DNA of 34,816 nucleotides from Paludibacter sp. (GTDB lineage: Bacteria; Bacteroidota; Bacteroidia; Bacteroidales; Paludibacteraceae), in contig JAIFKQ010000065.1 in NCBI GenBank assembly GCA_020049515.1, forward strand, positions 1 through 34,816. Reading direction: 5' to 3'. A program made the position numbers and the translations under genes. This document shows positions 5,242-8,028 of this stretch, piece by piece. Each line of letters begins with the position of its first letter. The first letter of the stretch is position 1. The notes below the pieces were generated by a model. It ran no database searches. It worked only from the letters and a program-made list of their open reading frames with translations, and was not told the origin of the DNA.

Positions 5242-6609
5242 TTATTCCACCACTTCGCCAATAAGGGCAGCAGATGAAGCACTCAACACTCGAATTTGAA
5301 TGGTTTCACCAATTTGGCGGCCAATTCTTGGAAATATAACCACTTTGTTTTGCGATGTTCTACCAAAAAGTTGTTCTTTCGACTTTTTCGAAAAGCCCTC
5401 CACCAATACTTCAAACGTTTTTCCAATATCATTTTTGTTGCCTTGATGGGTAATTTCACGCTGTACTTCGATGATTTCGGCCAGACGTCGCAATTTTTCT
5501 TCCTCTGGAATATTGTCGGGCAATCGTTTGGCCGCAAAAGTGCCAGGTCGCTCGGAGTATTTAAACATATAGGCCAAATCAAATTTCACTTCGCGCAACA
5601 ATGCCAAAGTTTCCTGATGATTTTCTTCTGATTCGTTGTGAAACCCGCAGAACACATCTGTACTGATAGAAGCTTCTGGTAAAATGCGATGAATGGCAGC
5701 TACGCGCTCCAAATACCACTCGCGGGTGTAATTTCTTTTCATCAGTTTTAGCACATTATTGCTTCCCGACTGCACAGGAAGGTGAATGGATTTGCAAAGA
5801 TTGGGATACTTTGCAATGGTTTCGAGCATGCGGTCGCACATATCTTTGGGATGGGGAGTCGAAAATCGGAATCGAATTTCGGGTGCAGCTTCCGCCACTA
5901 TCCGCAATAAATCGGGAAATTCAATCAGTGATTCGTCCTCGTTTTCAAACTTGTACGAATTTACATTCTGACCAAGCAAGGTCACTTCTTTGTAGCCCTT
6001 TGATTGTAAATCCTTTAGCTCGTTCAAAATACTATTTACGTCGCGGCTGCGTTCCATTCCACGGGTATATGGTACAATACAATAAGTACAAAAGTTATTA
6101 CAGCCTCGAGTTATAGAAATAAAACCAGAAATGGATTTGCCAATTCGTGTTGGCAAAATATCGCTGTAAGTTTCAGTGGTTGATAATTCCACATTGATGG
6201 CTTTGTTGCCACTTTCTACAATTCCAATCAAATTTGGAATATCCAAATAGGCATCTGGTCCCACAACGATATTAACGCCGTGATCGTTGATAAGCTCCTC
6301 TTTTACGCGCTCGGCCATACAGCCTATTACGCCTACTATGAGCTTTTTGTTTTTGCGTTTTAATGCTCCAAAAGATTTGAGGCGGTTTATCACTTTTTGC
6401 TCAGCATTATCCCGTACCGAACAAGTATTTATAAATATAGCATCTGCTTCGGTAATATTCTCGGTCAAAGCAAACCCATCCATTTCCATGATTGATGCCA
6501 CTACTTCACTATCAGCCACGTTCATTTGGCAGCCATAAGTCTCTATAAAGAGCTTTTTGTCGTTCAAAGCGGATTTAAAGTCCGATGAAGCAACAGTTTG
6601 TTCGTTCAT
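5242..6609 (-). CDS. miaB: tRNA-2-methylthio-N6-dimethylallyladenosine synthase MiaB
   Basis: KLFIETYGCQMNVADSE; radical SAM ITRGCNNFCTYCIVPYTRG; C-terminal TRAM-like region. ATG at 6609 preferred over the ORF-track start 6663 because TAnnTTTG promoter (caaaggta, 6642-6649) lies between them. Confidence 0.93.
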   Translation of the reverse strand: MNEQTVASSDFKSALNDKKLFIETYGCQMNVADSEVVASIMEMDGFALTENITEADAIFINTCSVRDNAEQKVINRLKSFGALKRKNKKLIVGVIGCMAERVKEELINDHGVNIVVGPDAYLDIPNLIGIVESGNKAINVELSTTETYSDILPTRIGKSISGFISITRGCNNFCTYCIVPYTRGMERSRDVNSILNELKDLQSKGYKEVTLLGQNVNSYKFENEDESLIEFPDLLRIVAEAAPEIRFRFSTPHPKDMCDRMLETIAKYPNLCKSIHLPVQSGSNNVLKLMKRNYTREWYLERVAAIHRILPEASISTDVFCGFHNESEENHQETLALLREVKFDLAYMFKYSERPGTFAAKRLPDNIPEEEKLRRLAEIIEVQREITHQGNKNDIGKTFEVLVEGFSKKSKEQLFGRTSQNKVVIFPRIGRQIGETIQIRVLSASSAALIGEVVE

Positions 6610-6806: not shown

Positions 6807-6926
6807 TTTGCACAATCAAAAAAAAAATATCACTTTTGCAGAGTAAACAAACAGATAAATTTTTCATAGTTAAGGTTTAGGTTAAAATGTGCAATGGGTG
6901 GCTGTGAAGTTACCCATTGTTTTGTT
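6807..6926 (+). ncRNA. Candidate small RNA gene, copy 1 (promoter, ~80-nt transcript, terminator)
   Basis: TTTG(6807-6810)-N20-CACTTTTG(6831-6838); conserved leader AAACAAACAGATAAATTTTTCATAGTTAAGGTTTAGGTTAAAATGTG; hairpin CAATGGGTGGCT-GTGA-AGTTACCCATTG plus T-rich tail. Confidence 0.7.
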
Positions 6927-7007
6927 ATAGCTACAACGTTAATTTTTATTCAAAAAATCAATTTTTGAGTGAGTTGAAAATTTTTAATGAAAATAATTCA
7001 TCAATTA

Positions 7008-7128
7008 TTTGGTAGTTTAAAATATTATTCTCACTTTTGCAGTGTAAACAAACAGATAAATTTTTCATAGTTAAGGTTTAGGTTAAAATGTGCAATGGGT
7101 GGCTGTGAAGTTACCCATTGTTTTATTA
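7008..7128 (+). ncRNA. Candidate small RNA gene, copy 2
   Basis: TTTG(7008-7011)-N20-CACTTTTG(7032-7039); leader and hairpin (7093-7120) match copy 1. Confidence 0.7.
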
Positions 7129-7220
7129 TAACACTTTTGTTAATCTCCTAATATACTGTCCTTATTTCTGTAATCGAAAAAAACCAATGTAATTTTTAAT
7201 TGAAAATATTATCCTAATTG

Positions 7221-7340
7221 TTTGGTGTTATAAAATATTATTCTCACTTTTGCATTGTAAACAAACAGATAATTTTTTCATAGTTAAAATTTTGGAATAT
7301 ATTGGCAATGGGTGGCTGTGAAGTTACCCATTGTTTTTTC
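7221..7340 (+). ncRNA. Candidate small RNA gene, copy 3 (diverged 3' leader)
   Basis: TTTG(7221-7224)-N20-CACTTTTG(7245-7252); AAACAAACAGATAATTTTTTCATAGTTAA then divergence; identical hairpin 7306-7333 plus TTTTTT. Confidence 0.68.
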
Positions 7341-7419
7341 AATTATATTTAATTAGTAATAATCTTAGGTGATACTTAAAAATATACTGTATTTTTGTAT
7401 TACACAAAATAAAATATTT

Positions 7420-7839
7420 ATGGATAGTATAGGCGATTATATATATTTGATTATTTTGGCATTGGCCGGATTAAGTGGGTTGTTTAAAAAGAAAAAAGAA
7501 ACAGGCGCTTCAACTCCAACTTCAAGCAAAAAATCTTGGGAAGATGTTTTGCGTGATTTAGTTCCAATAGAAGAAGAACTCAATATTGAACCAGAAGTAG
7601 TACCGAATGTAGTTTCCACAGTTCCTCCTATAACTTATCAGAGTTATGAAACTGCTCCAGATCCTTTAGTATTGCGCGCTAAGAAACCAGTGTCAAATAT
7701 GGTTTCAGCCAAAAATCCTATTGTAACTGAAAGAAAAATAGATACAACAAATAGTTCTCAAACTGAATTTAATTTTAGTACATTGGATGATGCCAAAAGA
7801 GCATTTGTTTATTCTGAGATTTTTAATAGAAAATACTAA
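7420..7839 (+). CDS. Hypothetical protein, short N-terminal hydrophobic segment then KKKKE basic stretch and low-complexity region
   Basis: ORF 7369-7839; ATG 7420 preferred because a TATTTTTG promoter box lies at 7390-7397. Confidence 0.55.
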   Translation: MDSIGDYIYLIILALAGLSGLFKKKKETGASTPTSSKKSWEDVLRDLVPIEEELNIEPEVVPNVVSTVPPITYQSYETAPDPLVLRAKKPVSNMVSAKNPIVTERKIDTTNSSQTEFNFSTLDDAKRAFVYSEIFNRKY

Positions 7840-7992: not shown

Positions 7993-8028
7993 GAGAGTTC
8001 CGGCCAATTATTGTCGGAATTCTTTTTT
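7993..8028 (+). terminator. Leader terminator/attenuator hairpin upstream of greA
   Basis: GAGTTCCGGC (7995-8004) pairs with GTCGGAATTC (8013-8022), 10 bp including G-U pairs, followed by TTTTTT. Confidence 0.75.

Follow-up and report, generated by a model that had tools for sequence, protein, structure and literature searches.

Three tandem copies of a ~200-bp unit were identified in a 34,816-nt stretch of Paludibacter DNA (referred to here as the window), and each of them carries a small RNA (sRNA) gene of its own. With their homologues in other genera, these genes form a real and old family of intergenic sRNA genes that has been tandemly amplified in Paludibacter. We propose, with a probability of about 0.6 for the explanation as a whole, that the three copies are independent genes of a family related to FopS and GibS, that their products would pair with and block mRNA start codons, and that the tandem arrangement would raise dosage. 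To our knowledge, few Bacteroidota sRNAs are known beyond a handful of Bacteroides species.

Layout of the array and its promoters

The array lies between the divergent gene miaB and a small gene that is followed by greA (8072, plus strand). Direct-repeat comparison recovered three repeats of 150 nt each at spacings of 201 and 213, in agreement with the unit starts 201 and 213 bp apart of the original prediction, which had been made by reading this DNA. Within each copy the order is promoter, GTAAACAAACAGATAAA (GTAAACAAACAGATAAT in copy 3), a 26-nt leader TTTTTCATAGTTAAGGTTTAGGTTAA, a 13-bp terminator hairpin and a T-run. The features are given below, where R1 is a model built solely from the miaB-linked family.

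5242-6609, minus strand: miaB, tRNA methylthiotransferase, divergent neighbour and locus marker across the order
6807-6838, plus strand: copy 1 promoter (-33 TTTG at 6807-6810, N20, -7 box CACTTTTG at 6831-6838)
6842-6927, plus strand: copy 1 sRNA gene, ~85 nt (start and end deduced from the -7 box and the T-run, respectively; fold)
6842-6931, plus strand: copy 1 match to model R1, 94.9 bits
6860-6885, plus strand: copy 1 conserved 26-nt leader, putative seed (found unchanged in 117 or more contig stretches)
6891-6920, plus strand: copy 1 terminator hairpin, 13 pairs, then a T-rich tail (fold; covariation in homologues)
7008-7039, plus strand: copy 2 promoter TTTG-N20-CACTTTTG (pattern scan)
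7043-7128, plus strand: copy 2 sRNA gene, ~85 nt (R1 match 7043-7132, 96.1 bits, E 2e-15)
7061-7086, plus strand: copy 2 conserved 26-nt leader, putative seed (exact leader matches elsewhere)
7092-7121, plus strand: copy 2 terminator hairpin (terminator scan, fold)
7221-7252, plus strand: copy 3 promoter TTTG-N20-CACTTTTG (pattern scan)
7256-7341, plus strand: copy 3 sRNA gene, ~85 nt, diverged (R1 match 7256-7345, 78.6 bits)
7274-7299, plus strand: copy 3 leader (5′ half TTTTTCATAGTTAA intact; 3′ half AATTTTGGAATA instead of GGTTTAGGTTAA)
7304-7335, plus strand: copy 3 terminator hairpin (terminator scan, fold)

The promoter pattern TTTG-N20-CACTTTTG was confirmed with a spacing of 20 in all three copies and occurs nowhere else in the window; a scan of both strands of the whole window for TTTG-N19..21-[CT]ANNTTTG returned only 6807, 7008 and 7221. 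With a promoter of the Bacteroidota housekeeping type (-33 TTTG, -7 xAnnTTTG), each copy would constitute an independent sRNA gene, the product of which is predicted to consist of a mostly single-stranded 5′ part with a nearly invariant 26-nt seed, followed by an intrinsic terminator. Each copy folds into a hairpin of 13-14 bp with a tail (z about -3). Terminator-like sites in the region amounted to the three of the array and an unrelated fourth at 7993, against 0.4 expected from shuffles of the region. The hairpin had been described as identical in its core, and the stretch from GCAATGGG to CCCATTGTTTT is indeed the same in all three copies; the predicted transcript, originally put at ~80 nt, was corrected to ~85 nt.

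Other claims of the original prediction held in part. Near-identity of the copies applies to copies 1 and 2 (87/90 positions) and not to copy 3 (only 73-74/90), part of whose divergence falls in the 3′ half of the 26-nt segment, elsewhere the best conserved; with half of its seed lost, copy 3 may be decaying or retargeted. The spacers are diverged, as claimed, on the 3′ side. Upstream, the 67 nt before copies 2 and 3 agree at 53/67 positions, which indicates that the promoter region was duplicated as part of the unit.

Tandem copies recur in several Paludibacter genomes at differing spacings, and the suggested roles of dosage or redundancy are reasonable on this ground; the tandem copies of Paludibacter would raise the amount of sRNA. 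In one genome (L068) the units share long near-identical spacers, and this tandem is a recent duplication. Separately, the window encodes at 7369-7839, between the array and greA, a poorly conserved protein of ~140-156 aa, which shows 32-47% identity in other Paludibacter and was not detected at this site in Bacteroides.

Conservation, linkage to miaB and hairpin covariation

Exact matches to the leader TTTTTCATAGTTAAGGTTTAGGTTAA were found in species-representative genome contigs, in at least 117 stretches, almost all of them Bacteroidales. Among the matches listed are Bacteroides (including B. fragilis, B. salyersiae, B. gallinarum and B. congonensis), Phocaeicola, Mediterranea, Barnesiella, Prevotellaceae and Paludibacter, together with a single match labelled Roseburia that is probably a binning error. 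Of 36 genomes of the same genus, most contain the exact 26-nt segment, which also occurs in two further families of the order, and the nearest relatives of the window among named contigs are Paludibacter metagenome assemblies. Among the matches listed, a -7 TTTG box is found 15-27 nt upstream of the leader at 116/119 homologous sites, and 75 of the 117 stretches listed have a divergent miaB nearby, several others ending at a contig edge. An annotated miaB adjoins the homologues in B. finegoldii and P. distasonis.

Since an exact-match search makes identity of the 26-mer true by construction, this bias was controlled by sampling miaB loci across the order by protein search alone (68 loci/upstream regions, window excluded). 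Scanning with a covariance model revealed the sRNA in 11/68 loci (genera), all among the closer MiaB relatives, and the leaders of these 11 loci carried 0, 0, 0, 0, 0, 0, 0, 1, 1, 1 and 2 changes. Across the order, a model match was obtained under strict filters in 43/247 genomes, a lower bound whose weak end may include FopS-like relatives, and no credible family member outside the Bacteroidales was found among the 299 phylum genomes scanned. The miaB-linked sRNA family, present in many gut as well as environmental members of the order, is widespread, not universal, in the Bacteroidales. This genome carries 3-4 copies and most genera sampled gave one match, so that multiplicity would not seem to be a family trait.

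Weak R1 matches outside the order (L276-L279) were considered and none was counted, L278 and L279 being gene starts read backwards. These reversed gene starts, and with them L272 from the genome of the window itself, pass for weak members under the sRNA model on account of its anti-start seed, which calls for caution in genome-wide scans with models of this kind. The phage collection searched contained no match to the sRNA, and the plasmid collection gave two matching records that resemble chromosomal pieces with miaB. No report of the sequence, or of an sRNA near miaB, was found in the open-licence literature searched; the B. thetaiotaomicron orthologue may already be named with a BTnc number.

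Several variants were observed around the leader. In L062, L073, L074 and L191 a 5′ hairpin GTGTGTGCTCCTAAAGCACACA replaces the GTAAACAAACAGATAAA leader before the same 26-nt segment. A fourth copy of the 26-nt leader in the genome of the window (G000:C3:23214-23300; L011, L270) has a 5′ hairpin TTGGTTTTGACC/GGTCAAGCCAA and a different terminator, and a short TonB-receptor-like match lies ~700 bp away on that contig. The constant part is the seed, and the flanks are exchangeable. At its 3′ end the contig of L043/L197 runs, within the sRNA hairpin, into the sequencing-adapter sequence AGATCGGAAGAGCACACGTCTGAA, an assembly artefact in a public genome.

Across 58 diverse sequences, 13/13 hairpin pairs show pair-keeping changes on both sides. 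The covariation score of the hairpin was 0.707; shuffles gave 0.283, and sliding the hairpin no more than 0.27. Of the hairpin cells, 92.7% were paired (71% in shuffles, no more than 63% after sliding). What is conserved in the hairpin is its shape, and in the leader its sequence, as would be expected of an sRNA that combines a seed with a terminator. Taken together, the conservation, the miaB synteny, the -7 box and the covariation establish a real, old, intergenic sRNA gene, and strongly support the earlier proposal of self-contained sRNA genes under selection on promoter, leader and hairpin. One orthologous locus across many Bacteroidales genera provides a fixed reference point, and the same sRNA is open to deletion and study in several cultivable genera, namely Bacteroides, Phocaeicola and Parabacteroides.

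Relationship to FopS

FopS is a 14-member sRNA family of B. thetaiotaomicron that pairs with susC-like mRNAs at the start codon and so represses them, and it binds, and is antagonised by, the RRM-1 protein RbpB (PMC11697453). A scan at the Rfam gathering level, a check proposed with the original prediction, detected no family in the window, nor over the sRNA in 18 loci with homologues, and below the cut-offs it disclosed FopS as a distant relative. More specifically, FopS (RF04319, cut-off 56) scored 30.8, 30.3 and 20.5 bits on copies 1, 2 and 3, and 29.6 bits on the B. salyersiae homologue. In the other direction, the next matches of model R1 in this genome after its own members include bona fide FopS genes, at 38.1 bits (E 7e-4) and 31.6 bits (E 0.014). 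The kinship with FopS is thus reciprocal. Five FopS genes score above the Rfam cut-off in this genome; four of them are tandem (G000:C64:802-2076; L005-L008), lie downstream of an argC-like coding sequence and have one promoter apiece. The genome also encodes one RRM_1 protein, of the RbpB family.

Any RNA that evolved to cover a start codon would acquire UUUUUCAU and letters like it, and the likeness could therefore be convergence between unrelated families that use the same principle. The part most similar to FopS is exactly the anti-start segment, and the weak matches in this genome and outside the order (L272, L278 and L279) are reversed gene starts, both of which fit convergence. The likeness, however, also spans the GGTTAA end of the seed and the GTGA(A) loop of the terminator, and overall length and order of parts are alike as well. 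Of common ancestry and convergence, we regard convergence as possible but doubtful on these sequences, and kinship with FopS as probably the better account.

A putative anti-start seed and its proposed mode of action

Read as its reverse complement, the leader gives TTAACCTAAACCTTAACT-ATG-AAAAA, which has the form of a typical Bacteroidota gene start. From the complementarity of the leader to CCTTAACT-ATG-AAAAA, an idealised start region, the seed is predicted to pair over mRNA start codons, probably those of exported or envelope proteins that start Met-Lys-Lys, and a FopS-like block of translation initiation would be the best mechanism: the paired seed would keep ribosomes from entering, as FopS does. 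At 472 gene starts, the leader favoured starts over internal ATGs (difference -0.11 kcal/mol, vs +0.52 +/- 0.28 for shuffled seeds; 0/40 shuffled seeds as low), a preference that is modest and based on crudely called starts. Several of the top-pairing genes look like lipoproteins or exported proteins; SusC-like transporters, of which just 2 scored above cut-off in this genome, were pooled into this test. No specific target emerged: near-perfect complements were no commoner than in the reversed-pattern control in 40 Paludibacter genomes with the sRNA genes set aside, and 6/20 inspected sites were true gene starts, in unrelated genes.

These last counts would suit a second reading, by which the 26 nt are mainly a protein-binding site, for instance for the RRM-1 protein RbpB, so that the sRNA titrates the protein and mRNA pairing is secondary. 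Twenty-six conserved nucleotides in a row are more than is usually required for pairing with a few targets that change, FopS RNAs are bound by RbpB (PMC11697453), and an RRM_1 protein is present in this genome. Against this, the segment matches a start region well in antisense, ATG and lysine codons included, its pairing with gene starts is relatively better than that of its shuffles, and the equivalent FopS segment is a proven mRNA seed. We consider a mainly protein-binding role unlikely, and start-region pairing the best reading of the segment. The near-invariance of the seed raises the question of whether an sRNA can act generally on start regions or is fixed by a protein partner.

A decoy or sponge function, put forward in the original prediction from the tandem, near-identical copies, found no support and is very improbable: the leader lies antisense to start codons and is like FopS, a repressor that binds mRNAs, with the same polarity as the FopS seed and no complementarity to it, and most genera sampled have a single match. 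Least probable of all is a role in cis, as an attenuator or leader for the gene downstream, or as the beginning of a small opposite-strand gene, which the leader read backwards (ATGAAAAAT...) and the gene beginning at 7420 might recall; every copy has its own promoter and terminator, the downstream gene changes between genera while the sRNA stays, the opposite-strand frames differ in length with early stops that vary by copy and species, and a T-run lies 3′ of the hairpin on the sRNA strand only.

In a wider form of the start-codon-pairing reading, which we offer tentatively and hold to be less probable than its alternatives combined, the sRNA would be an order-wide core sRNA, vertically inherited beside miaB, that regulates envelope-protein translation in general through one nearly invariant anti-start seed, and whose duplication might have given rise to the lineage-specific paralogues FopS and GibS.

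Comparison with known sRNA families

MasB (BTnc201) and BatR (BTnc167) are characterised Bacteroides sRNAs that likewise bind in or near mRNA 5′ regions; MasB is ~100 nt long and narrowly conserved (PMC10994844), BatR is 154 nt long and processed (PMC10861873), and neither was found here by any search. BTnc231 (RF04180) matched the same segment weakly, at 23.6 bits and below its cut-off of 80.4, and differs in its model length of 154 nt. GibS (RF04182) shares an R1-type seed and scored 28.5 bits on the B. salyersiae homologue (cut-off 115). It is ~145 nt long and has additional hairpins as well as a second seed, R2 (PMC7366714), whereas the window sRNA is ~85 nt long and falls outside GibS.

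The closest resemblance is to FopS. Both have a single-stranded 5′ seed with UUUUUCAU(A/G)GU ... GGUUAA antisense to the start codon, a length of ~65-85 nt and a GUGA-loop terminator, both may come in paralogous, sometimes tandem copies, and both families occur in this genome. The FopS form, a single-stranded 5′ part and one intrinsic terminator in ~65-70 nt, is seen in the window sRNA at ~85 nt, and the window copies have a FopS-type sigma-ABfr promoter, with the -7 box CACTTTTG instead of TAnnTTTG. Unlike FopS, the window sRNA has UAAGGUUUA rather than AUUAGAUUUAA in the middle of the seed and an extra 5′ leader of ~15 nt before it, its copies do not preserve the FopS R1′ segment in full, and the miaB-linked sRNA is mostly single-copy at a fixed place beside miaB. 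As the window copies score below the FopS cut-off, we file them outside FopS; they look like a sister family, which on sequence would be a relative of FopS without an Rfam entry. FopS itself extends to Paludibacter, beyond the Bacteroidaceae in which it was described (PMC11697453).
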